A stretch of 64,000 bases of DNA from Candidatus Sulfopaludibacter sp. SbA3. Its GTDB lineage: Bacteria; Acidobacteriota; Terriglobia; Bryobacterales; Bryobacteraceae. Positions 2 through 23,870 of the stretch are shown piece by piece. The stretch is taken from assembly GCA_945893365.1 (NCBI GenBank), contig CAMDED010000001.1, forward strand, positions 124,001 to 188,000, read 5' to 3'. The first letter of the stretch is position 1; each line of letters starts with the position of its first letter. The position numbers and the translations under genes are program-made. The notes under the pieces were generated by a model. It did not search any database, was not told where the DNA came from, and saw nothing but the letters and a program-made list of their open reading frames with translations.

Positions 2-538
2 GTGGAGCGGGCAGTGAGTGATCTGTTGGCAGGGAAAGTGCTTGGTTGGTCACAAGGACGCTTCGAATGGGGTCCCCGAGCCTTGGGGAATCGTAGCATT
101 CTGGCGGATCCAGCCCGAGCCGCGATGAAAGAAATCGTCAACACAAAGATCAAGTTCCGCGAACCTTTTCGCCCTTTCGCACCGTCGCTGATCGCTGGTG
201 CAGAGGATCGCTACTTCGTTCAGCCCCTGGGTAGCCAAGCAACCGCCAAGTTCATGCTGAGGACAGCAACCGTGCGCCCGGAGGTACGTGATTGCATACC
301 CGCGGTAACCCACGTCGACGGCAGCGCTCGCCCGCATGTTGTGGAATCGTCGACGAATCCGCTATATCATAAACTGATTCAGACGTTTGGTGACGCGACG
401 GGCAGTCCGGTTGTCTTGAACACCTCGTTCAACCTGCGCGGTGAACCGATGGTCGCGTCGGCCGACGACGCCTTAGCCACGTTTTTCGGGAGCGAGATGG
501 ACGTGCTATACCTCGGGAGTTTCAGGGTCAGCAAGTAG
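2..538 (+). CDS. Carbamoyltransferase, C-terminal part (NodU/CmcH family)
   Basis: This is the last 178 or so residues of a carbamoyltransferase whose 5' part lies outside the window. The family transfers the carbamoyl group of carbamoyl phosphate, through an adenylate intermediate, to a hydroxyl of a sugar, antibiotic or other metabolite in the cytoplasm. The C-terminal domain is recognisable from RFEWGPRALGNRSILADP near the start, FREPFRPFAPS after it, and VLNTSFNLRGEP near the end. The first Met in view is internal, because the full family length is about 550 to 600 residues. The next gene follows after 15 bases and encodes the small membrane protein that often accompanies this family. The acceptor substrate cannot be told from the sequence. 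Confidence 0.9.
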   Translation: MERAVSDLLAGKVLGWSQGRFEWGPRALGNRSILADPARAAMKEIVNTKIKFREPFRPFAPSLIAGAEDRYFVQPLGSQATAKFMLRTATVRPEVRDCIPAVTHVDGSARPHVVESSTNPLYHKLIQTFGDATGSPVVLNTSFNLRGEPMVASADDALATFFGSEMDVLYLGSFRVSK

Positions 539-553
539 AGGAGGGCTTCTAAA

Positions 554-736
554 ATGAAGGCGCTAGTCCGCACGCTGCGCGGAGGACTGGAAACGGTCGG
601 GGAGCTCCTGCGCCTCTTCAGCAGCGACGGTCGCTGGTGGCTTCTGCCTATGATCATCGTTTTGCTCCTGTTTGGATTGGTACTGCTCCTTGCTTCCTCA
701 TCTCCTCTAGGACCCTTCATTTACACGCTGTTTTAG
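554..736 (+). CDS. DUF5989 family small membrane protein
   Basis: This 60-residue protein has a basic amphipathic N-terminus, then a WWLLPMIIVLLLFGLVLLL membrane helix, and ends in the pattern FIYTLF. That layout is typical of DUF5989 proteins, which are usually found directly behind carbamoyltransferases. Their function is not known to me; a role in anchoring or assisting the carbamoyltransferase at the inner membrane is inference from context. The gene lies 15 bases after the carbamoyltransferase and 10 bases before the next gene, so all three may share a transcript. Confidence 0.8.
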   Translation: MKALVRTLRGGLETVGELLRLFSSDGRWWLLPMIIVLLLFGLVLLLASSSPLGPFIYTLF

Positions 737-746
737 CGGATTACCT

Positions 747-2900
747 ATGTCATGGCCGATGAATTCAATCCGGACGCTCGAACCTGGCAATTGGCGCTGC
801 GAGGATGCCGAGAAACTGTTGAAATTGATCCAAATGCTTCACCTCGCAAGAATCCGCCCTCGTGATATTGGGCCGGGAGACCCTCCTCTGAGTGCGGAAG
901 AGCAGCAACACCAGTACCCCGTGGCTAAGCGAATTCTTGGGAGCGACTTGTTCCGTGAGGTTCAGGGGGCAATGGGCCTCCTGCAGTGCGTGCTACATTA
1001 CGGCTTCGAGGATAGCGAGAATCGGTTCCTCCTGTTCGAACTCGGGTCCGAGCCGCTTTATCTCCCTGTGCCTTGGCTTGCTATCAATGGCAACGAGCCG
1101 AAACGTGACAGCATGACTGATCTGTTGAGGAGCTATCGCGAGGGTCGCGAGCGGCATCAAGAGTTCTTGACAGTTTTTCGCACCCAACATGCACTTTACC
1201 CGGAAGAACGGACGGAGTTCATGATTCTCGCTTCGGATGCGGAGCTGAGTTTTTTTACGCTCTGCTGGGTCATCTGCCAGGCCATTGGCGATGCTCGGGG
1301 TCGCGGCATCTCCATTGCCGATTGGCTTGCAGGCTCCGCTTCCCTCGAGTCTATCTACGGTGACCACCACGATGCATCCTCGCCTGCAGAGTGGCATTCC
1401 GCCCGGTTCGTGGACGCAATGTCGGTCTTAGGCCTTCTCAAGACCAACGATCCAACCTCCCCTACGCAGCGCTTTAAGAACCTGTGCCGTTGGATAGAAG
1501 AAGGGCGTCTTGCGGCCCATCCCGCTTACACCAATCTCGACGTTCAAGTAGACCCGTCGGGAGCGTCATCTCCTGCCCGTGAAGTTCTCGATCCCTTACA
1601 CATCGCGACACTCCTCCAAGCAGAGATGCCCCAATCGACGCTTCTGGCCCTCACCGCATACGTGGGCGGAACCCTTGACCAAACTTTTCGCCAAAGCCAG
1701 ATCATGAATGCCAGGACGCTGGAAAACTACCTTCGTGACCGCAACAAACTTCGGGTGAACATCTCCGGCGAGTATCCCTTGCGTCGCGATGAGGATCTGC
1801 TTCGCTCCTATTTCGCAATACCACTTCGCCTCGGAACAGGTTCCGGCCCCGGTTCGCGACCTTCAATTGAGGCGAGTGAGGACATCGGAGTGTTTGCTCT
1901 TGGGACACTCGTCAATGCAGAACGTCTCGACGATCCCGGAGTGAGTGAGCGAATCCAGGCACTCCGCACTCTCCTCCTCTGCCTTGCAGGCTTCGCGTCA
2001 GCTGAGACAATTAAACAACTAGCAGAGTGGGCTCGGCTCTCAAATGTCAGCGACCTCGCCCATGAATTGAAGCATGTGGGCATCGCGCTTACCAATAAGT
2101 GGCTCCTAACACCTGAAGAAGCGGAACAGATTCGAGTGCGGAATCCAGAACTGCTTCAGGGTCACAAGGTGGCGCCTCGACCGGCGATCATTGTGGCCAC
2201 CGGTCGCCTAATTCAGTTGTGGTCGTTTTCTCAATCGCCCGAGGGGCTCTTTGATAATCACGAACCCCAGTCCTTCGATGACCTGGTCTCAGTAGCGTGG
2301 GGTCTGACAAAAGACACGTTCAAACCACTTGTCTGCAAGGGAGAAGACGTCCGCCTGGCTGAGGATCTAGCTCAAATCGATGCATATCTTTTATCAATCG
2401 ACGCTCTTTGGAATGGCCAGCCCAATCCTACGATATGGAAGCCTGGAGTACCAACTCGGGCGGCGGGCAGTTTCAAAGTATCGACCACTGGCGATCCACT
2501 CCCGAAGCCTTTCTGGACAATGAGTGATTCGAAATCATTGAATTGGTTTCATCTCATGCGCTTTTTCGTCAGTTGCTTCATGGAAGCTATCCGTCACGCA
2601 AGTTGTGAAAAGGACATCAATGTCTCACTCAGCGGAGACGACGACCTGCTCACGATCATTGTTTCGAATGACTGCCGTTTGGAATCAGAACACAGTAGCT
2701 TGGCATCTTGGTTTGTGCGGGCGACGGATCGGGTGGCGACCGAATTAGCTCCAGCAACTGCGAAGGGATCAATAGTGCGGACCAGAATCGCGCGTGCCTT
2801 AGGTGGAGACTTTGTGGAGTCTCCAGAAATGACGAACCCTCACGCAAAAACTTTAACATTTAACATGTCTGCCCTCCACCGGAGTAGCTCAGCACAATGA
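747..2900 (+). CDS. Histidine-kinase-like protein with degenerate ATPase domain
   Basis: This 717-residue protein has no predicted membrane segment or signal peptide. The first 400 residues match nothing I recognise. Around residues 436 to 450 the sequence SDLAHELKHVGIAL resembles the phospho-acceptor H-box of sensor kinases. Residues 600 to 708 look like a GHKL ATPase: FMEAIRHA where the N-box should be, then LLTIIVSND, and a closing KTLTFNMSAL strand. The N-box Asn and the DxGxG loop are not visible, so ATP binding may be lost. The assignment is inference from short motifs. No strong ribosome binding site precedes 747, and a second in-frame ATG lies at 759. The stop overlaps the next start (ATGA at 2897), so the two genes are probably translationally coupled. 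Confidence 0.5.
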   Translation: MSWPMNSIRTLEPGNWRCEDAEKLLKLIQMLHLARIRPRDIGPGDPPLSAEEQQHQYPVAKRILGSDLFREVQGAMGLLQCVLHYGFEDSENRFLLFELGSEPLYLPVPWLAINGNEPKRDSMTDLLRSYREGRERHQEFLTVFRTQHALYPEERTEFMILASDAELSFFTLCWVICQAIGDARGRGISIADWLAGSASLESIYGDHHDASSPAEWHSARFVDAMSVLGLLKTNDPTSPTQRFKNLCRWIEEGRLAAHPAYTNLDVQVDPSGASSPAREVLDPLHIATLLQAEMPQSTLLALTAYVGGTLDQTFRQSQIMNARTLENYLRDRNKLRVNISGEYPLRRDEDLLRSYFAIPLRLGTGSGPGSRPSIEASEDIGVFALGTLVNAERLDDPGVSERIQALRTLLLCLAGFASAETIKQLAEWARLSNVSDLAHELKHVGIALTNKWLLTPEEAEQIRVRNPELLQGHKVAPRPAIIVATGRLIQLWSFSQSPEGLFDNHEPQSFDDLVSVAWGLTKDTFKPLVCKGEDVRLAEDLAQIDAYLLSIDALWNGQPNPTIWKPGVPTRAAGSFKVSTTGDPLPKPFWTMSDSKSLNWFHLMRFFVSCFMEAIRHASCEKDINVSLSGDDDLLTIIVSNDCRLESEHSSLASWFVRATDRVATELAPATAKGSIVRTRIARALGGDFVESPEMTNPHAKTLTFNMSALHRSSSAQ

Positions 2901-4186
2901 CAAATCCTGTACACGTATTTGTTGTCGAGAACGCTACGCCATCCGAATGGGATAAGGTGAAGTTTCCGCCGGATAGTGCATTTAGCTTGATAAGACACGA
3001 CTTTGTCAAGATAAGGGACCACGACACTTTCAACACTAACCTCTCGCTCATATCCAGCGTGGTGGGGCATGCAATCGTACTGCTTGATCTTAACCTGGAG
3101 ATTCGGCTAGAAGAACCAGAACAAGCTGCGCTGAACGCCGCACTGAATCCGATCTTCTCGAGCGCCGGTCTGTCACAAGCAGACCAACTGGAGCGGCAGA
3201 ATCTACAAAGAGTCTATGCGGGTCTGGCGGAGCAACTGAATTCGGGGTTATACTTCCTGCTCAGGCTTCTAGAGACTGCGAAGTGGGATGGCCTCGTCTT
3301 CGTATGTAGCAACACCACCAATCCACCCGCGATAGAAATAATCCGCAATCTGAGTCGGCATAGGGCGGCGGACCACAAGCTGGTGGTATCGGTGAGGGGG
3401 AAAGGTTCTCTAACGGCGAATCCGCAGCAAGCGATCACCGAGGCCCATGAACTTTTCCAACGTGAGTTTGATTTGCTCCACTGGTATCTTCATCCGCCGC
3501 CTCTTGGCGAACAAACCCCTGAGAAAGACGTGTCCTGGTTGGAGCCTAGGCTTATCGGCGGTAAATATCTAGCTCATAACATTGGTGACTCTCACTTTAG
3601 CCAACACTGGGAAGGGATCATAGCCGCATTTCCTAGACTAAAGACTGCAAATTATCAGTGTCTAAAGCCAATTGTCTGTGCCTATGACAGCGGCGGCGTG
3701 AACAACGAAGAAGTTCCACTCGAAGTGTTGGGTGGGCTGCTCGAAGTGCAGATCTCGTTAGAAGATGTTTACTCAAACACAATGTTGCTGGATCGCGGCG
3801 TTAGATTTCCAGTAAACCCCGCGTTCCCTTTCATACTTGCTCTCCGCCAATGGCTCCATGGAAACGTCTTGCAGTACCACGGGAAAGAGCCTGTTAAGGC
3901 GATACTCGTGACACCCTTCGACAATGCAGCCATTTTGGCTATTCGTCCCGAGGTTATACCCGTCGAACTCGCCGCCAAGATCGGGAATAACAGGGAGACG
4001 AACGTCGGAGATTTTGCTTGGCTGCTGCTTCAGGCATGCAAGAAATCTTGTCGGCCGACGGAAGTGCCGGCGCGGGCAAGCAACTGGATGCTTGGCACTC
4101 TTGGCATGCCAGACGACAAGCCTTGTGCCTTTCCGTGGATCACCCCCTTTCACATTGGTATCGGATGGACGTGGGGGAAGCCATGA
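2897..4186 (+). CDS. Receiver-like protein of unknown function
   Basis: This 429-residue soluble protein starts with a beta strand (VHVFVVEN), followed at residues 59 to 68 by AIVLLDLNLE, which looks like the phospho-acceptor strand of a response regulator (candidate Asp64). A helical insertion of about 60 residues follows, then LVFVCSNTT and KLVVSVRGKG, which would supply the Thr and Lys positions. The resemblance is weak and the insertion is unusual, so the receiver call is inference. The last 250 residues are unrecognised. The start overlaps the kinase-like gene by four bases, and the stop overlaps the next start (ATGA at 4183). Its place behind a kinase-like gene supports a signalling role. 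Confidence 0.45.
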   Translation: MTNPVHVFVVENATPSEWDKVKFPPDSAFSLIRHDFVKIRDHDTFNTNLSLISSVVGHAIVLLDLNLEIRLEEPEQAALNAALNPIFSSAGLSQADQLERQNLQRVYAGLAEQLNSGLYFLLRLLETAKWDGLVFVCSNTTNPPAIEIIRNLSRHRAADHKLVVSVRGKGSLTANPQQAITEAHELFQREFDLLHWYLHPPPLGEQTPEKDVSWLEPRLIGGKYLAHNIGDSHFSQHWEGIIAAFPRLKTANYQCLKPIVCAYDSGGVNNEEVPLEVLGGLLEVQISLEDVYSNTMLLDRGVRFPVNPAFPFILALRQWLHGNVLQYHGKEPVKAILVTPFDNAAILAIRPEVIPVELAAKIGNNRETNVGDFAWLLLQACKKSCRPTEVPARASNWMLGTLGMPDDKPCAFPWITPFHIGIGWTWGKP

Positions 4187-5142
4187 GTTGCTGCCTTTAC
4201 CGAATAGCCGCGCTACCAGCTAAAACGCCAGAGGAGTCTAATGCTCACGTTAGCATGCTTGCTTCGGTTATCAAGGACAACCAGCTTTTCTGCACAAGCT
4301 TGGACTCATCGACTTGGGACGCCGTGCCTGAAGACCGAAGAAGCAACGCGCGACCCGTCCCGGGAGCTGCATTTCAAGGGCTACCCGACACCTGCGCTCT
4401 TGCGATACTACATAGTCCCTACGTATTGCAAAAGGGAGATCAAACCTCCTACTATGACTTCCTCAAGAACAGTACAGAGAGCTCTGGGTTGACTTGCACT
4501 GTTGTGTTTGTCAGCAGTGGCCGACTGGAACTTGGGCCTAAACGTGTGGATTTGGGCGAGTCAGTTCGATACCTCCTTCCAATTCCTGACACAACGAAAT
4601 CACTGCTGAATGTTTCTGAAGACGAACGTAGGAGTCGTTGGTCTGCACTCGTCCGTTTTTGCCTTAACAAGGACCGCCTTGATCGCTGGTTTGGAGATCG
4701 CTTTTGGTTGGATGCCGTCGGTGACGACGCGATTCTGCGCATGGTGTTTCCAGTTCCGGCACCTGCTCGTGAAGACCTAAGGCTAATTCTCGCAGGCTGG
4801 CTTGTAGTCAACGCGGAACGTCTAGCCAACCTGAACGCGGACATGTTTGAGACACTCAGGAGCCTCGGAGCTGTTGACGGAGAGCCCGGAAAATGGCACG
4901 GAACTTTCGCCGCAGCCCGCTTTCAGTTTAGTACCGACGGATTCCCTTTGCGGGAGACGTTGCTTGAGGGTATCGGGGCCAGTGGCATTTCCGCTTTTCG
5001 CAGCGAGCTCGCAAATGAGCTTGATGACGCTGAGCTCTCGAACTACAACTCGCTCAGAACCTTGCTCAAGGAGGTTGAAGAGGGGAAGGAGCCAACGACT
5101 CTGCTGGCTGCGTCCGCATATGCGGAGTTGGCCCGCTTGTGA
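4183..5142 (+). CDS. Unknown protein, third gene of the overlapping operon
   Basis: This 319-residue protein is not recognised. The frame is also open upstream back to about 4018, but the ATG at 4183 overlaps the preceding stop as ATGA, the pattern used throughout this operon, so I chose it over the in-frame ATG at 4165. The N-terminal half contains alternating strands and helices (for example LAILHSPYVL and TCTVVFVSSG). The C-terminal half is mainly helical. No catalytic motif, zinc site or membrane segment is visible. The stop overlaps the next gene (GTGA at 5139). Its role must be read from context, as a component of the same signalling-type complex. Confidence 0.6.
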   Translation: MSCCLYRIAALPAKTPEESNAHVSMLASVIKDNQLFCTSLDSSTWDAVPEDRRSNARPVPGAAFQGLPDTCALAILHSPYVLQKGDQTSYYDFLKNSTESSGLTCTVVFVSSGRLELGPKRVDLGESVRYLLPIPDTTKSLLNVSEDERRSRWSALVRFCLNKDRLDRWFGDRFWLDAVGDDAILRMVFPVPAPAREDLRLILAGWLVVNAERLANLNADMFETLRSLGAVDGEPGKWHGTFAAARFQFSTDGFPLRETLLEGIGASGISAFRSELANELDDAELSNYNSLRTLLKEVEEGKEPTTLLAASAYAELARL

Positions 5143-5657
5143 AGTCTGACGCTCATGTGGTGCCTCCTTGGCAGGTTCGGCGCACAGAATGGAGCCATCA
5201 TTGGCTTAAGAACTCGTATTTCCAAGATCTCACCCTTGTTGTCCGAGTGCTTGAGGGCAAGGTCCGGTCTAATCAGACCAACGTGGCCATGATTGGGACC
5301 TTGCTTCGACGATGGCCGCCTCGGGCTGCGGACCTTCGGCAATTGATTAAGGACTTCGAGTCGGCGATGTCGCCGGCCTCTCTCCTTGAGCGGCCCCGGT
5401 TTGCTGGCTTACGGTCAGAGGTCAAGCATGCGCTGCATGTTGCCTTGCATCAGGCCTGGCTGCGAAAACATGGCGTCGGTGCCCTCCAGACTGACGTACT
5501 CCTCGCATTGGATAGGGCGACCACTGCTGCCGATCAGTTGCACGCGCTAAACTCAACTGATGCCGACCCCCTGCCTGCAGTGAAGCAGTTCCGGAACGCG
5601 TTGGCTGGGCTATCCGAAGCTGTGCACCGCCTCCCAAGTGAGATTCTGATCCCATGA
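5139..5657 (+). CDS. Small helical protein, fourth gene of the operon
   Basis: This 172-residue protein starts with GTG, and that codon overlaps the previous stop as GTGA. It is predicted to be mostly alpha-helical, with amphipathic stretches such as RAADLRQLIKDFESAM and AVKQFRNALAGLSEAV. There is no signal peptide, membrane segment or known motif. Size and composition would suit an adaptor or a phosphotransfer-type bundle, but no conserved His motif stands out, so that is speculation. The stop overlaps the ATG of the receiver/AAA+ gene at 5654. Confidence 0.55.
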   Translation: MKSDAHVVPPWQVRRTEWSHHWLKNSYFQDLTLVVRVLEGKVRSNQTNVAMIGTLLRRWPPRAADLRQLIKDFESAMSPASLLERPRFAGLRSEVKHALHVALHQAWLRKHGVGALQTDVLLALDRATTAADQLHALNSTDADPLPAVKQFRNALAGLSEAVHRLPSEILIP

Positions 5658-7525
5658 ACCTCCCAAGAATTCTTGTGATCGACGACACCTACGGTCGCCA
5701 AACTGAGTCGGGTGTGAATTCTGAACGCTCTGCCTTCTGCGCGAACTTGCTGCTGCGCGACGTAAGCGGAGGGGATCTCGACTCGATAGTGGAAGTAACC
5801 GAGGCGCAGGCCGAAGCTATCTTCATGCGGGGTCAGATGCCTCTGCTGAGCAAACTTGGAGACAGCGTTGAAAACGATTTATCTACAACGATTGAAGCCG
5901 TTTCTAAGGTATGGGAGTCACCCGAAGATAACCGACCATCGTGGAGCCTCGTGCTTCTGGACCTGTGCTTTTTGACCGGGCCTGTGACTCCAGAGTCAAA
6001 CAGGGCTATGTTAGGTGCACCCGCCGGTCGGCCGGAGGATTCAGATCCTAGCCGCTATTTTGGCCTGGCGGTACTCCGCGCTCTGCGCAAACGGTGTCCA
6101 GATCTACCTGTGATCATTCTCTCCAGTCAGCCCAATGACGAGCGCGTAGCCCTTTCCTATGCCGAAGCGGGAGCGCTCGGGTTTTTGGCGAAAGACGATC
6201 TCGGCGGCGACGAGCTTCTTCGGCAGTATTTGGAACGCTACGGCCTCCTCGAAGATGATGGGGCAAGTCTCCTAGGCAGTTCTCGACCTCTACTACGAGC
6301 CCTTCGCACGGCCCGCACCGCCGCCGGAACTCGCCATAACGTCCTCATCCTTGGCGAGAGTGGAACCGGCAAAGAGCTTCTGGCGCGTTACATTCACCGA
6401 AAGAGTTCGGCCGCACAGCAACCGCTGGTAGAAGTAAATTCGGGATCACTCTCCGAGGAACTCTTCCAGTCCGAACTGTACGGCCACGTCAAAGGAGCCT
6501 TCACGTCGGCTGACAAAGAGAAGGTCGGGAAGATGGTACTCGCTCAGCGTGGTGATCTCTACTTTGATGAAGTTGGGACACTGCCGACGCGTGTTCAGGA
6601 AGCGCTGCTCCGTACTCTTGAAGAACTGAGAATTGAACCTCTCGGTTCCAATAAACCGGTTTCGGTGGATTTTCGGGTACTTGCCGCGACCAACGCGGAT
6701 ATGCCGTTCTTGCTCGAAACGAAATTGTTTCGATTCGATCTGCATGAACGGCTAACACGAGGCGGCTCAATCACACTTCCTCCTCTCCGCGACCGACCAG
6801 GTGACATCCCATTCTTGGCGGAGAACTTCCTTGGCGACGAACGCCGCAAAGCCGGCAAGGAAGGACAGCAGACAATTACGCCTGAAGCACTTATTTTGCT
6901 GCAGAATCACAAGTGGCCCGGCAACGTTCGCGAGCTTAGAAATGTAATGTCACGTCTAGCAGCTACGTATGCAGACTTGCCGTACATTGTCCCTCACCAC
7001 GTCGAGGCCGTGCTCCCGGTGCCATCCAAAGCGGCCCTACTTTTCCCAGCACATTCCGCCGATTCGGGAGATGTGCTGACAGGCTCTTCGCCCGTGAGTT
7101 CTCCCGTTGTGGCGCCGCGAGACACGTCAGCGAAGCCACCACTTGAGGATCTGTACAGGTATCTTGAGACGTTCCCCTTCGACGGCCGACCGATAGAGGA
7201 ATTGCGTGGGCAGCTCCCAAAGCTGATCGATGCCATCTTGACCGCAGTATCAGCATTACTTCGCGCAGCCATCCGCCACTATCCGAAGCGAAAGCAGCCT
7301 GGCGAGTACTATTTTGAGCCTGCATTCAAGGACGTCGCGGCAGATGAGTCCCTGACAGCCGTAGACGCGTACGATTTTATCAAGCGACTCTTTAAGTTAT
7401 GGCCAGCATCGGCGGCTGCGCTACGTGACCCAGTTATTCGCAGCCTGCATGAACGAAGTAGGCGCGGTCGCTCATCAACGAAATCTCAAGGCGGTGATGC
7501 CTCGGGCGAGAAGTCCAAGCCATGA
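5654..7525 (+). CDS. Receiver plus sigma-54-type AAA+ ATPase without DNA-binding domain
   Basis: This 623-residue protein begins with a receiver domain: an acidic pair at 10-11, WSLVLLDLCF with candidate phospho-acceptor Asp103, VIILSSQ at 153-159 and a Lys in GFLAKDD at 180. The distance from the acidic pair to Asp103 is about 40 residues longer than usual, so the domain carries an insertion. An NtrC-type AAA+ domain follows: Walker A GESGTGKE (234-241), the loop GAFTSA (281-286) in place of GAFTGA, Walker B DLYFDE (301-306) and an arginine-finger region near 358-367. After the AAA+ lid, family members usually have a Fis-type helix-turn-helix. Here there is instead a linker of about 50 residues and a roughly 110-residue helical domain I do not recognise. 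It may therefore act on partner proteins rather than on promoters. Four-base overlaps join it to both neighbours. Confidence 0.85.
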   Translation: MNLPRILVIDDTYGRQTESGVNSERSAFCANLLLRDVSGGDLDSIVEVTEAQAEAIFMRGQMPLLSKLGDSVENDLSTTIEAVSKVWESPEDNRPSWSLVLLDLCFLTGPVTPESNRAMLGAPAGRPEDSDPSRYFGLAVLRALRKRCPDLPVIILSSQPNDERVALSYAEAGALGFLAKDDLGGDELLRQYLERYGLLEDDGASLLGSSRPLLRALRTARTAAGTRHNVLILGESGTGKELLARYIHRKSSAAQQPLVEVNSGSLSEELFQSELYGHVKGAFTSADKEKVGKMVLAQRGDLYFDEVGTLPTRVQEALLRTLEELRIEPLGSNKPVSVDFRVLAATNADMPFLLETKLFRFDLHERLTRGGSITLPPLRDRPGDIPFLAENFLGDERRKAGKEGQQTITPEALILLQNHKWPGNVRELRNVMSRLAATYADLPYIVPHHVEAVLPVPSKAALLFPAHSADSGDVLTGSSPVSSPVVAPRDTSAKPPLEDLYRYLETFPFDGRPIEELRGQLPKLIDAILTAVSALLRAAIRHYPKRKQPGEYYFEPAFKDVAADESLTAVDAYDFIKRLFKLWPASAAALRDPVIRSLHERSRRGRSSTKSQGGDASGEKSKP

Positions 7526-9795
7526 TCGCTCCTTTCGGAACACCGGTGCTTGCATGTGCCTCTTTACGCGCTCGTCGCACGGAGAGCGTAAGTCTTTTCC
7601 TCGATCGGTGTAGAGGCAAATCGATGCCGCACGCCTTTCCACGGGAGAACACGATTACAGTACAGGCTGCCGGGGACATCGCGCATTTTCTCGATCGTCT
7701 TTCTCCAACTGACCTGAGGAACCTTGTTTTTGTCGTAGACCTTGAATGGACCCCTGCGGCGGCGGAATGGGATCTAACCCGGGAGGTTCATCCACTCCGC
7801 CCGGTTGAACTGATGCTGTCGTTCCCGGAAGTCTATTGGATCTTTCTAACGCCGAGTCTGCCTGACCTTAGCGACGCTTTTGCTTCGAGGCGATCAACTC
7901 CACCAGAGTTGAGTAATGGCGCATTCCAGCAGCAACTTCGTTCATTGGCGATCCCGGCACACTTCGTCGAATATGAGAAGCTAGCGCTGCTCCCGCAACT
8001 CATCCAACGTCATGGCGAAGGATTCAGGCCTCTGTTTGATCCTTTCGGCCTGCGCTTCTTTATCGAGGCGATGGCGCAACCGGACATGGCCAAAGCTCCA
8101 GCTTCGAGTTCTCAATTCCTCTTGCCTCAACTTGGAGTGGCGGTAGAAGATGAGTCTACATTTTGCTGGTTTCATGGCTATCTCCTCTATCGCTATGGTC
8201 GGTTCGCATCCTTGGCGCCGACCTATAGCGCATTGCGCACCTGGCAGAAACTGCTCTCGTCCGCGTTGGATGAGATAGAAGGGAACGGCCGGAGTGTACA
8301 TCCCACCGGTTCTGCAGCAGGCGCGACCGTGGAGAGACCAACTAAGATTGCCATCATCGAGGACGTCGAACTGAGCTTTAGTGATTGTAAGGATTGGATA
8401 CTCCGCAAAGAGAGCCTGATGCCTGGCCATTATGAAGCAACGACACATCTGTATCGTGACCACTCGACCGCTCTTCGACTGCGTTGGGACGAGGGACAAT
8501 GGAGCGGACGGTGGGCTCCCCGCATTGTGGTCTCCTCAATTAAGGTCTCGTGTGATGGCCGCGCTATCTTAAAACCCCACAACGGGATGTTTGAGATCGG
8601 AATCGTGGAGAGCCTTTGGAGTCCGCCGAAGGACAGACCGAACTCGCCGCCCACCGAATGCCTCAGATTCAGAACCGACGGAGCGCCTCCTAGCGCTGCC
8701 GACCGCCACAGCGCAACAGGAATGGTCCAGGAGGTGGCCGCACGTCTGCTTATGCGTATTCGGGCAGGGGCGGAGGACGTTCGCGATAGTGACCAAGCGA
8801 TACATTACGCTGCCCTCGCTCTTGCCGCCCGTAGGCTGCTTGGATTTCGCACACTGCATCTGTCCTTGGACGCCATTCGTCTACAGCATCAGATGGAAGT
8901 TGAGGCCGAAGCCAGTTTCATCGGCACATCGAATGATCTGGATGTCGATCTTCGGATGAGGGTCATTGAGGACGAGGTTACAGATATCGTCTGGCGCTGT
9001 ATTGATGGCTTCGAAGGCCCCTGGTCGAGGCGCTGGAGAATGGCTCGATCATTGATCCTGGCGGGCGGTTTGTCGAATCGTCAGATCCGCACGCGGATTC
9101 GGAACCTCGTTTGGGGACCCGGAACCGAAGCTGCACCACTGCGGCCTGAGGATAAGGAGCCCAAACGAAAGCGCCAACTTATTAACGCCATGCTGGAGAC
9201 TTCCTCAAGCTTGCGCGACGTCTATCACAAGCATGACCAGATCGATGATGAAAACGATCTGGTACGTCATTTTTTGTATTGGCAGAATCGCCCTTACAGA
9301 CGCCCAGAAACGCGTGACGTACTCAAATGGACGCTCAGTTGGCCTCTGGGATATCTCAATATTTTGCGAGGAAGTCTGAGAGGGCTCCTGTTTACATCTT
9401 TGTGTTGGGTGATCCTCTTTGCCGCACTCTTTGCCAACTTTGCGGCACCATCCCCAAGTCTGTCCCTGACCGTGCCCATTGGGTCTTGGGGACGCGGAGC
9501 GTATTGGGTCGCCCATTCTGGAGGAGTCTTCATCGGGATGCAGCAGTTCCTCGAGGGTGGATCAGTGCCGGGGGACATGAAGGACGAAATTCTGGCGTTG
9601 GAGCAGTGGCGAAACGAACCAGTTGAGTTTCCGGCGGTGCGCATGGCACGTGAACGGATGGCGGCGGAGTACATCACGGACTTGCGAGCGAGACTTAGCC
9701 GGTGGTGGACTCTGTACGTTTGTGAGATTTCGCTCGGCTACATCCACCTGGCTGTATTCATTGCTCAACTGGCACAGCGACTAAGCCGTCGCTGA
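7522..9795 (+). CDS. Large unknown protein with C-terminal membrane region
   Basis: This 757-residue protein closes the six-gene operon. The ATG at 7522 overlaps the previous stop; an in-frame ATG at 7624 is the alternative. The N-terminal 350 residues hold alternating strands and helices (NLVFVVDLEW, VYWIFLTPSL), and KIAIIEDVELSF begins a second domain. The middle is rich in Arg and Trp and contains paired acidic helices. Residues 614 to 645 form a clear hydrophobic membrane segment (LLFTSLCWVILFAALFANFA), and a weaker hydrophobic helix lies near the C-terminus. No enzyme motif is visible. A membrane-attached output or effector role is inference from its position after two receiver-type proteins and an ATPase. 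Confidence 0.6.
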   Translation: MIAPFGTPVLACASLRARRTESVSLFLDRCRGKSMPHAFPRENTITVQAAGDIAHFLDRLSPTDLRNLVFVVDLEWTPAAAEWDLTREVHPLRPVELMLSFPEVYWIFLTPSLPDLSDAFASRRSTPPELSNGAFQQQLRSLAIPAHFVEYEKLALLPQLIQRHGEGFRPLFDPFGLRFFIEAMAQPDMAKAPASSSQFLLPQLGVAVEDESTFCWFHGYLLYRYGRFASLAPTYSALRTWQKLLSSALDEIEGNGRSVHPTGSAAGATVERPTKIAIIEDVELSFSDCKDWILRKESLMPGHYEATTHLYRDHSTALRLRWDEGQWSGRWAPRIVVSSIKVSCDGRAILKPHNGMFEIGIVESLWSPPKDRPNSPPTECLRFRTDGAPPSAADRHSATGMVQEVAARLLMRIRAGAEDVRDSDQAIHYAALALAARRLLGFRTLHLSLDAIRLQHQMEVEAEASFIGTSNDLDVDLRMRVIEDEVTDIVWRCIDGFEGPWSRRWRMARSLILAGGLSNRQIRTRIRNLVWGPGTEAAPLRPEDKEPKRKRQLINAMLETSSSLRDVYHKHDQIDDENDLVRHFLYWQNRPYRRPETRDVLKWTLSWPLGYLNILRGSLRGLLFTSLCWVILFAALFANFAAPSPSLSLTVPIGSWGRGAYWVAHSGGVFIGMQQFLEGGSVPGDMKDEILALEQWRNEPVEFPAVRMARERMAAEYITDLRARLSRWWTLYVCEISLGYIHLAVFIAQLAQRLSRR

Positions 9796-10046: not shown

Positions 10047-11420
10047 TCACAGATCGGACAAATATTTCGCAATCCGGTTTGGGAGATCACGAAAAGCATC
10101 TTTTCCCAAAATTTCCAAATTCTTTTCACGGGGTCCCGTGTCCTCCTCTACATCGCGCTGCAGTCGCCGGGCCTCTTCAGCGAACAGAGCGCATAGAAGC
10201 AACGATCGGGCACCGTTACCGCCTACTTGCTTGGCGCGATGCAGGACTTCGAACGCCTTGCGCTTGAGCGCGGCCTGGTCTGCGGACAGCGAACACGAAA
10301 TGACAAGCAGTTCATAACCGAGTACCGCCACAACATCCAATTCGAAGTCGCGGTGGACTGTCGCATTGGGCGCCGATTTCGCAACACGTATCGAATGGTA
10401 CACGTTCCACTTCAAATGGCCGGCACGCTCCAGCGCCTCTCTCAATGACCGGTAGGCAAACAACTCCAGACATTGGTATTGCAGGAATTGATTGAGACGG
10501 CCTAGATCAGCGGGGACCAAATGCTCCAGGTGCAGTGCCCATCCGCTGTCGCTACGGCACCAAAGGTTGCCGCCACCGAAATGATCCCGCAATCGTGTGG
10601 TAAGAAGTTCCCAGTTGGGGTAGTTTGGCAGCGTCATCCACTGAATCGGTTGTTTAGGCCAGGACTCCTTCGGCGGCGTCTGTGGCCACCTGGCCCATCG
10701 TCTTTTCGCTCGTCCCGAGTTGCTATCCCAACAAAGTGTCCAGACAGATTGAAGCCAGTCGGCATAGACTCGCCGATTCTCCGGAACTTGCAGCGCAGTG
10801 AACAGATCGCAGCCAAGTTCAACAAGAGCCGGGTCCGGTTTGGACGCGGTGACCCGGAGGTTGCATTGAGTTGAAAAGTATTCCGTCGCGAAACCGTTCA
10901 GTTCAGCCAGCTCGGAAACGGAGAGAGCCCAACTTGCCCTCTCATCCGCTGTGGATGATCTCTTGCTGTGGACGATCACATTCTCGCCGGTGGGCAAGAA
11001 ACTCGTTTCGAGTTCACAAGCGCGACCATCCTCATATCGATATGCGGAGAGCGCTTCCATCGCATTTACGGACATGGCTCTCGAACCACCGCTGTAGTGT
11101 AAATGAAAAACGCAGTCTGGTGGCTGCAGCCTGATCATATTGGCTACTGCCTGCCGAATCGCCTGAGGTTTGGAATAGGGAACCACAAATTGCGTCCACC
11201 TCAGCACCTCCTGGTGGCCAAGCAGAGAGTCGCCTCGGAGGCGGGACTCAAGAAGCCGATAGACACGCTGCGCTTCATCGGTCGTGTCGTCTCGGCAAAG
11301 TACTGAAAATGTGGGCAATCGGCCGTCTCGTTCTAAACCCCAGCAACATAGGCGAAAAGCGCCCACCAGGACTGGAATCTCACTAAGTCCGACGGTCAGG
11401 ATTACGTGGGTTCGATCCAT
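10047..11420 (-). CDS. Card1-like protein: CARF sensor plus PD-(D/E)XK-type nuclease (DUF1887-like)
   Basis: This 457-residue protein has an N-terminal Rossmann-like CARF domain (HVILTVGLSEIPVLVG, then CVFHLHYSGGSRAMSVNA at the ligand loop) and a C-terminal restriction-endonuclease-like domain (FELDVVAVLGYELLVISC). This is the layout of Card1/Can2 proteins, which bind cyclic oligoadenylates and then cut nucleic acid during type III CRISPR immunity. Two things differ. No cas gene or CRISPR array is in the window, and the catalytic Lys normally seen just after the ISC strand is replaced by Ser (ISCSLS); a Lys-rich helix follows a few residues later. The gene converges with the six-gene operon across 251 bases. 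Whether it senses a product of that operon is unknown. Confidence 0.75.
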   Translation of the reverse strand: MDRTHVILTVGLSEIPVLVGAFRLCCWGLERDGRLPTFSVLCRDDTTDEAQRVYRLLESRLRGDSLLGHQEVLRWTQFVVPYSKPQAIRQAVANMIRLQPPDCVFHLHYSGGSRAMSVNAMEALSAYRYEDGRACELETSFLPTGENVIVHSKRSSTADERASWALSVSELAELNGFATEYFSTQCNLRVTASKPDPALVELGCDLFTALQVPENRRVYADWLQSVWTLCWDSNSGRAKRRWARWPQTPPKESWPKQPIQWMTLPNYPNWELLTTRLRDHFGGGNLWCRSDSGWALHLEHLVPADLGRLNQFLQYQCLELFAYRSLREALERAGHLKWNVYHSIRVAKSAPNATVHRDFELDVVAVLGYELLVISCSLSADQAALKRKAFEVLHRAKQVGGNGARSLLLCALFAEEARRLQRDVEEDTGPREKNLEILGKDAFRDLPNRIAKYLSDL

Positions 11421-22661: not shown

Positions 22662-23870
22662 TCATTGGACCAGTCCTTCGGGGTTCTCCTGCGCATTCCG
22701 CCCCTGAAACGCCTCCCACCGCCGCGCTGCCTCGTCGTCCTGCCCGCGTATCGCGTGTGAGTAAACCTCCGCCGTTACCCGGACGGAAGAGTGCCCGAGC
22801 CGTTCGGATACCACCGGCAGCGACATCCCTGCCGCCAAAAGATGCGACCCATGACTGTGGCGGAGCGTGTGAAGGCTGACGCCCTTTGGAAGCTTCAGGC
22901 GACGGCACAGAGCGGACACCGATGCCGATACAGAGTCTGGCTTCAGCGGTGACCCGTTGGGGTTCGCGAATATCAAGTCCAGATCGGCGCGGTAGTCGGG
23001 ACCGAACTGGTGGCGAAACTCGTTCTGGCGGTTGCGATGCGTCTCTAAGGCCGCCACGGTCGAGGCTGGCAAGCTAACCCGGCGTTCGCTGTCCTCCGTC
23101 TTCGTACACTTGAACTCCAGCTTTTGCCTGGTCTGGGTCAGGGACCGGGTGATCAAAACCCGGCCATCTTCAAACTCGGACCACCTCAGCGCTAAGATCT
23201 CACCGCGACGAGCACCTGTCCCGGCGAGCACTTCCAGAAAAGTGCCGAGGCACCACGGCTCGGTCGCGGCCGCGATGAGCGTCCTCTGCTGCTCAGGCGT
23301 GAGAGCGATCCCCCGCCGCTTCTTCGGGACCGGAGGCTCGCTTGCCGAGACCGGGTTCACCGTAACCAGTCCCCACTTGATCGCGCGTGCGAAAGCGCTC
23401 GATACTATTCCTGCGATGTTGCGGACGGTCTTCGCCGACAGCGCGCGCGCCTCTTTTGTACGCCTGTGGTGACCGCCGCTCTTCAGTAAACGCTTCCATT
23501 CGCGCCCGAGGTGAAGTGGCGTAATCTCCGGTAGCGGCATCTTCAAGAGGTCAGCGTCGAGGTAGGCGGCCTGTTCGTGATAGCGTTCGATCGTTTTGGG
23601 AGCCAGGTGCTCATCCACGTGCTGGGAGAAAAACTCCTCCAGCAGCATGGATAGCGTCTTCGGAACTTCGATTTCGACGCCCCTCTTCGATAGCTCCTGC
23701 TTCTGTCGCTCCTCGATCCGTCTGATCGCCTCGGCGTCCTCGGCTTTGCGCTTCGTGGAGAAACCGGACGCGGAAATTCGATCCCGATTCTCGCGGGTCG
23801 AGCCCGGCCCGTCGTATTGGTAATACCAGACAATCTGGCCGGTACGGTTGGTGCGTTTGCGGACTGACAT
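22662..23870 (-). CDS. int: Tyrosine recombinase/integrase
   Basis: This 402-residue protein is a phage-type integrase. It has an N-terminal arm-binding part, a SAM-like core-binding domain (LAPKTIERYHEQAAYLD), and a catalytic domain with the Arg of GARRGEILALRW, the His-x-x-Arg of HTLRHSHGSHLL, LGHSSV with the second His, and the nucleophile Tyr in AEVYSHAI. It should integrate and, with an excisionase, excise the surrounding element at a tRNA 3' end. Its 3' end faces the tRNA fragment at 22570-22597. The start codon directly follows the stop of the upstream HTH gene, so the two are co-translated. Confidence 0.95.
   Translation of the reverse strand: MSVRKRTNRTGQIVWYYQYDGPGSTRENRDRISASGFSTKRKAEDAEAIRRIEERQKQELSKRGVEIEVPKTLSMLLEEFFSQHVDEHLAPKTIERYHEQAAYLDADLLKMPLPEITPLHLGREWKRLLKSGGHHRRTKEARALSAKTVRNIAGIVSSAFARAIKWGLVTVNPVSASEPPVPKKRRGIALTPEQQRTLIAAATEPWCLGTFLEVLAGTGARRGEILALRWSEFEDGRVLITRSLTQTRQKLEFKCTKTEDSERRVSLPASTVAALETHRNRQNEFRHQFGPDYRADLDLIFANPNGSPLKPDSVSASVSALCRRLKLPKGVSLHTLRHSHGSHLLAAGMSLPVVSERLGHSSVRVTAEVYSHAIRGQDDEAARRWEAFQGRNAQENPEGLVQ

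Follow-up and report, generated by a model that had tools for sequence, protein, structure and literature searches.

A rare six-gene array with two-component features and a predicted membrane-associated output in an acidobacterial genome

Does a run of six overlapping genes near one end of a 64,000-nucleotide stretch of the genome of Candidatus Sulfopaludibacter sp. SbA3 (the whole stretch is referred to as the window in this study) encode a signalling or defence system that has not been described, and if so, what might its output be? Our verdict is that these genes, g1 to g6, make up a real, very rare and undescribed system of the defensive two-component kind. Tentatively, and with a confidence that falls somewhat short of even, we read them as the central part of a phosphorelay that is rare, was gained by horizontal transfer and has a membrane effector as its last element. 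Such an acquired phosphorelay would probably have a defensive role and act by opening a membrane pore, both the pore and the defensive function being predictions.

Gene order and the first five products

The six open reading frames lie on the plus strand between positions 747 and 9795 of the window, with the same coordinates as in the first-pass annotation, and their base composition per codon position resembles that of coding sequence. All five junctions are four-base overlaps (ATGA at 2897, 4183, 5654 and 7522, and GTGA at 5139), so that the earlier description of six genes joined by five start/stop overlaps is confirmed from both the coordinates and the junction letters. A run of this kind is the usual mark of a single translationally coupled operon and, as the stop codons at the junctions are all TGA and sit within the ATGA or GTGA overlaps, translational coupling of the six genes is very likely. 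The GC content of the operon is 0.549, which is below that of every one of the 40 9-kb stretches sampled from the same genome (median 0.615, minimum 0.567).

The first gene, g1 (747-2900, plus strand), encodes a protein of 717 aa that might be histidine-kinase-like. By inspection, it carries an H-box-like motif (LAHELKH at residue 437), an N-box-like motif (CFMEAIRHA at 610) and a G-box-like motif (AKGSIV at 672). These motifs would fit a divergent kinase but are no proof of one, and g1 has no match in Pfam or the PDB. The product of g2 (2897-4186, plus strand; 429 aa) begins with a receiver-like part, recognised by inspection from the motifs VVEN, LLDL, CSN and GKG, in which the D, S and K positions are present and the acidic pair is E-N. 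C-terminal to this part is AHNIGDSH, which by eye resembles the H-box of the kinases encoded at related loci (SHNLGSH, AHNFGAH; see below). No family match was found for g2 in Pfam, PADLOC or NCBIfam. A profile of the related kinases, used in profile comparisons and hmmsearch, missed both g1 and g2, and a faint match of g1 residues 324-356 to these kinases (E 0.004) was not relied on. The earlier proposal that g1 is a kinase is not supported by sequence: its motifs point that way, but Pfam, the PDB and the kinase-family profile all failed to detect it. The product of g2 is a putative receiver on the strength of its motifs.

The third gene, g3 (4183-5142, plus strand; 319 aa), has a frame that is open back to a TTG at 4018, and the start within ATGA was taken. 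A segment of its product, VVFVSSGR, faintly resembles the V(I/V)TSGRG region of the kinase proteins of the related loci, at a level below detection by profile comparison; the same comparisons detected no homology of g1, g2 or g3 to those kinases. The next gene, g4 (5139-5657, plus strand), has a GTG start and encodes a small protein of 172 aa without a detectable homologue. There was no meaningful match for g1 to g4 or g6 in Pfam, NCBIfam or PHROG, and PADLOC returned nothing convincing for these five (a negligible match for g4 alone). As g1 to g4 have no detectable homologues, a kinase step at the window locus is proposed from motifs. The combination of g1 to g6 is not described in the literature searched and, with no convincing family for five of the six products, the earlier statement that no named system has this content holds.

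The fifth gene, g5 (5654-7525, plus strand), encodes a protein of 623 aa in which a receiver is joined to an AAA+ domain of the sigma54-activator type. It matches Sigma54_activat (5.6e-51), AAA_lid_14 (1.9e-17) and, with its N-terminal fragment, Response_reg (3.6e-5), which bears out the AAA+ and receiver motifs noted previously in this protein. The receiver has the acidic pair (D10-D11), the phospho-acceptor aspartate (D103), the T/S residue (S157) and the lysine (K180), in the motifs IDD, LLDL, LSS and AKD, respectively. The AAA+ part has a Walker A motif from residue 234, a GAFTSA loop at 281 (in place of GAFTGA) and a Walker B motif at 303, and its best PADLOC model is the AAA region of RtcR (2e-75). 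In its receiver and AAA+ core, g5 is similar to NtrC-type sigma54 response regulators and to RtcR. However, it differs from the NtrC type in its GAFTSA loop and in having no helix-turn-helix (HTH) detected in Pfam or NCBIfam, and from RtcR in having a receiver where RtcR has a CARF domain. When g5 was aligned with the regulators of two related loci (L005 and L006), its C-terminus aligned poorly with their Fis-like ends, and its C-terminal ~170 aa are unmatched. A faint match of the g5 C-terminus to the regulator of another locus, L026 (E ~0.05), was not relied on.

If g5 were a sigma54 activator and g6 a membrane accessory, the array could be a two-component regulator of the adjoining glycan/carbamoylation cluster, as genes for a carbamoyltransferase and a GDSL hydrolase and two glycosyltransferase-like genes (the latter at 11.5-13.9 kb) flank the operon. 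However, sigma54-type -24/-12 sites are not enriched in the first 14 kb of the window (1 found vs 1.0 expected), g5 lacks an HTH, and inspection revealed no glycan genes adjoining the relatives of g6. We regard this explanation as the most doubtful of those considered here.

Anatomy and relatives of the sixth protein

The last gene, g6 (7522-9795, plus strand), encodes a protein of 757 aa with two receiver-like domains, a helical bundle and two transmembrane (TM) segments, a division based on homologues, structural models, Foldseek, a TM scan and an alignment. The receiver-like domains had been overlooked in the first-pass annotation. In the window protein, the N-terminal one keeps Asp73 and has lost the acidic pair; the second has E211, D281 and K351-P352, and its strand-4 threonine is not recognisable. 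The membrane part consists of TM1 (~622-640), a possible pore helix (~658-677) and TM2 (~733-751).

Of the six genes, g6 was the most informative and provided the one dependable guide to relatives, of which four were found. Two of them, L005 and L006, are from other Acidobacteriota and came to light when sampled genomes of that phylum were searched at the protein level. A scan guided by an alignment and covering 84,980 species genomes returned three loci with the patterns used, namely L006 again and, as new loci, L008 (a Thermodesulfovibrio MAG, Nitrospirota) and L010 (a Planctomycetia MAG, Planctomycetota). Pairwise E-values against the window g6, in a small protein set, are 7e-13 to 3e-25. 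No further copy of g6 was found in several hundred sampled genomes per phylum (three phyla), and nothing was found in viral-contig scans with g6 and g1 or in plasmid searches with g1, g6, the g6 of L008, the kinases of L010 and L021, and the g5 receiver.

A model of g6 with the window sequence first was poor (pLDDT 48), and Foldseek likened its N-terminus to a receiver-like pilus-assembly domain (4dad, prob 0.90, E 0.75). With the L008 sequence first, the model reached pLDDT 70 and pTM 0.73. From the N-terminus, it has a Rossmann domain (1-150), in which the invariant D72 is kept and the acidic pair is missing, then another Rossmann domain (185-328) and a helical bundle modelled with confidence (356-500); TM1 (521-545), a short helix (552-567) and TM2 (579-610) follow at the C-terminus. 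The residues expected of a receiver lie, in the second Rossmann domain, at the C-terminal ends of the strands: D192/E193 at strand 1, D245 at strand 3, the threonine of VTVG at strand 4 and K313-P314 at strand 5. Four residues (E194, D245, K313 and P314 in L008 numbering) are identical in 5/5 g6 proteins and correspond to E211, D281, K351 and P352 of the window protein. Foldseek placed receivers high for this model (3jte, prob 1.00, TMt 0.63; 2rdm, prob 0.92, TMt 0.67) and listed tetrameric pore-loop channels weakly and at low probability (TRPM8, Kv4.2, SK2-4 and HCN1); none of its matches reaches E 0.001. When a profile of the second domain was compared with the PDB, the best match was the PhoP receiver, which is not significant (E 0.76), and Pfam was negative for the receiver domain of the window g6.

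As the catalytic residues of a receiver sit at the correct strand ends, g6 looks like a response regulator. The L008 model, the invariant residues, the Foldseek results and the PhoP match together lead to the best description of g6, a putative response regulator with a two-TM, pore-loop-like output for which conduction is predicted. This agrees with the earlier suggestion that the last protein is an effector, its modelled anatomy being effector-like. The order TM1-short helix-TM2 in the L008 model is that of the two-TM pore-loop channels of the KcsA/Ion_trans_2 type; however, the membrane part of g6 has no TVGYG-like filter or other selectivity-filter motif and no Pfam match, and its Foldseek similarity to such channels is weak. 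The outputs known for response regulators are mainly DNA-binding, enzymatic or protein-binding. If true, a pore-like output would tie histidine-kinase signalling directly to the membrane potential, and a pore in g6 would be a new route by which a phosphorylation signal leads directly to membrane leakage.

Related kinases, importers and the possible signal

In three of the related loci (L005, L006 and L010), g6 comes after the gene for a large kinase protein; the L008 locus starts where its contig does, so that any kinase gene is out of view. The arrays of L005 and L006 end in a small TM protein followed by a receiver-AAA-Fis-like regulator, and those of L008 and L010 end in receiver-like and receiver proteins, intact receivers being carried by the related loci. 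By inspection, the L010 array is broken by a transposase-like remnant and by frame breaks. The three kinases, and then those of L021, L022 and L026 (in which the kinase family is present and no g6 was detected), share an H-box, SHNxGSH (AHNFGAH in L022), and an N-box, ENxxRN, and a C-terminal region is conserved in most of them. As a Pfam HATPase match was seen in only one of the first three kinases, and below threshold, the kinase call for this family depends on motifs. The idea that the set travels together is thus upheld in part: the kinase and receivers accompany g6 in the related loci, but homologues of g1 to g4 were not detected there.

The loci with a kinase and no g6 vary in content. 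In L021 (3453-11437), a SHNIGSH kinase and then two receiver-like proteins are encoded 3' of the genes for a Liv importer, an asparagine synthase and a carbamoyltransferase. L022 (7739-11989) encodes a 1416-aa protein in which a methyltransferase-like N-terminus (NPPF motif) is fused to the kinase family; downstream, an intact receiver and a protein with several TM segments are encoded. L026 was found in a viral scan with the kinase, as was the phage-like L027, which proved uninformative. This locus (L026/L031/L032, IMGVR_UViG_3300036820_000579) has a Dpp importer, a radical SAM protein, a SHNIGSH kinase and a receiver-AAA protein, and it adjoins phage tail/capsid genes. Its receiver-AAA regulator is without GAFTGA and has no recognisable HTH, and its effector is a receiver protein with a DUF3800-like end, seen by eye and not confirmed by Pfam.

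The co-directional array of the window starts upstream of g1, and not at g1 as was noted earlier, when the upstream block of importer and tailoring-enzyme genes was overlooked. A gene for a small DUF5989 membrane protein (554-736, plus strand; 60 aa; Pfam PF19451, 7.1e-17) lies 10 bp 5' of g1 and connects it with genes for a carbamoyltransferase and an ABC importer further upstream (window 2-538 and past the left edge). The co-directional carbamoyltransferase gene ends 15 bp before the DUF5989 gene, and beyond it, in the same direction, are genes for the GDSL hydrolase and a complete Bmp/Nup-type ABC importer. Like the six-gene array, the DUF5989/carbamoyltransferase/importer block is low in GC for this genome.

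The window array thus also follows an importer. Among the relatives, a binding-protein ABC importer is encoded upstream of the kinase in every locus with enough sequence, of the Liv type in L006 and L021 and of the Dpp type in L010 and L026 (L005 and L008 reach contig ends, and L022 is uninformative). In L010 and L026, the importer genes lie close to the kinase array or overlap it. When the importer queries were run on 679 kb of control sequence, most of it drawn from the same genomes, a single binding protein of this kind was found; three more matches, to a fused query that included an ABC ATPase, were judged to be non-importers. Tailoring-type enzymes are represented by the radical SAM protein in L026, a lysine-2,3-aminomutase-like end in L005, the asparagine synthase and carbamoyltransferase in L021 and, by inspection, a CxxxCxxC protein in L006; in L010, a radical SAM gene is downstream. 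As the relatives carry an ABC importer, usually together with a small-molecule-modifying enzyme, the trigger of the system may be an imported, enzyme-tailored signal. The link to an importer is weaker in the window than in the relatives, as the genes found upstream here (carbamoyltransferase, DUF5989 and GDSL) might just as well be members of a glycan cluster.

Importers next to kinases might also reflect the regulation of a nutrient or metabolite, in which the kinase senses an imported substrate, the receivers tune its uptake, the metabolism or the potential of the membrane, and the site beside a defence island is incidental. This would be consistent with the amino-acid, peptide or nucleoside importers and metabolic enzymes directly upstream in the relatives, and with the regulators of L005 and L006, whose GAFTDA loop and Fis-like C-terminus (inspection) could drive transcription. 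However, the extreme rarity and patchiness of the system (3 loci/84,980 species genomes) and its low GC fit a mobile conflict system better. The defence island in the window, the prophage-side location of L026, and a window g5 and L026 regulator without a recognisable HTH likewise speak against nutrient regulation, which we consider unlikely. A private form of communication is less probable again. In this case, a modified amino acid or peptide made by the tailoring enzyme would be re-imported, and the kinase-receiver relay would trigger g6 population-wide. L006, L021 and L026 do each combine an importer, a tailoring enzyme and a soluble kinase within a single array, and arbitrium, in which a peptide signal imported by the oligopeptide permease (Opp) is read by a cytosolic receptor, provides a precedent (PMC6458997); the importer classes differ among the loci, however (Liv, Dpp and Bmp).

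Genomic setting and a possible defensive role

Downstream of the operon are a defence island and then a prophage. The island (window 14521-40919) encodes AbiEi/AbiEii, a QatC-like protein, a DruE-like helicase, DpdE (E 9e-259), a DrmMI/IIG-like methyltransferase and an E1-JAB-like protein, and it includes an integrase-like gene (22662-23870). The operon of the window therefore borders a defence island, a point that the first-pass annotation had put forward for checking. As the operon adjoins this island and one relative (L026) adjoins phage genes, a role in defence or abortive infection is pointed to; it is location that suggests this role. A search for an empty site with the downstream glycosyltransferase yielded no matching site. 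Between the operon and the two glycosyltransferase-like genes is a gene for a CARF-PD-(D/E)XK nuclease (10047-11420; Csx1/CARF4-like; PADLOC Csx1 3e-38), near which no CRISPR-Cas genes were seen. As it is convergent to the operon and absent from the related loci, it was ruled out as a seventh component.

In the phosphorelay with a membrane effector, which we prefer, the putative cytosolic sensor g1 (perhaps together with g2) would perceive the signal and hand it to the receiver domains. The receiver-AAA+ protein g5, in which DNA binding seems to have been lost, would probably serve as an oligomeric relay or gate. Activation of g6 would then allow its two-TM domain, with the short re-entrant-like helix, to open a pore, and the membrane would be depolarised. 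A bolder form of this proposal appears rather unlikely to us. In it, g6 would be a receiver-gated ion channel that a cytosolic kinase opens directly through phosphotransfer, and it would belong to a mobile immune or alarm system equipped with its own importer and an enzyme that tailors the signal.

Among known systems, Detocs is a defensive two-component system (PMC11249213). It is a defence operon of a few genes, built of two-component parts, with an effector that is activated downstream, the plan that we propose for g1 to g6. However, it has three genes instead of six and a PNP effector instead of a membrane-protein output (family searches detected no PNP family, as a nucleotide-cleaving effector, in any of g1 to g6), and neither the AAA+ partner nor the upstream importer is known from Detocs. 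In STAND/MoxR-vWA conflict systems, receiver domains have been reported to serve as effectors or switches (PMC7159879, PMC8195603), and their use as conflict-system effectors has been noted (PMC8195603). The receivers of those systems are described as independent of histidine kinases, and the vWA/STAND cores are absent here. If our reading is true, g1 to g6 would add a defensive two-component type alongside Detocs, and the recurrent block of importer and tailoring enzyme in the relatives lets one ask whether bacterial immunity heeds imported signals.

Two neighbouring gene sets should be mentioned separately. At L005 (9302-18471), a neighbouring operon encodes, by inspection, a tubulin-like protein, a vWA protein, a HerA/TraD-like ATPase and a ClpP-like protease. 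In the defence island of the window, the combination of DpdE, DruE and DrmMI may be an unusual hybrid system in its own right.
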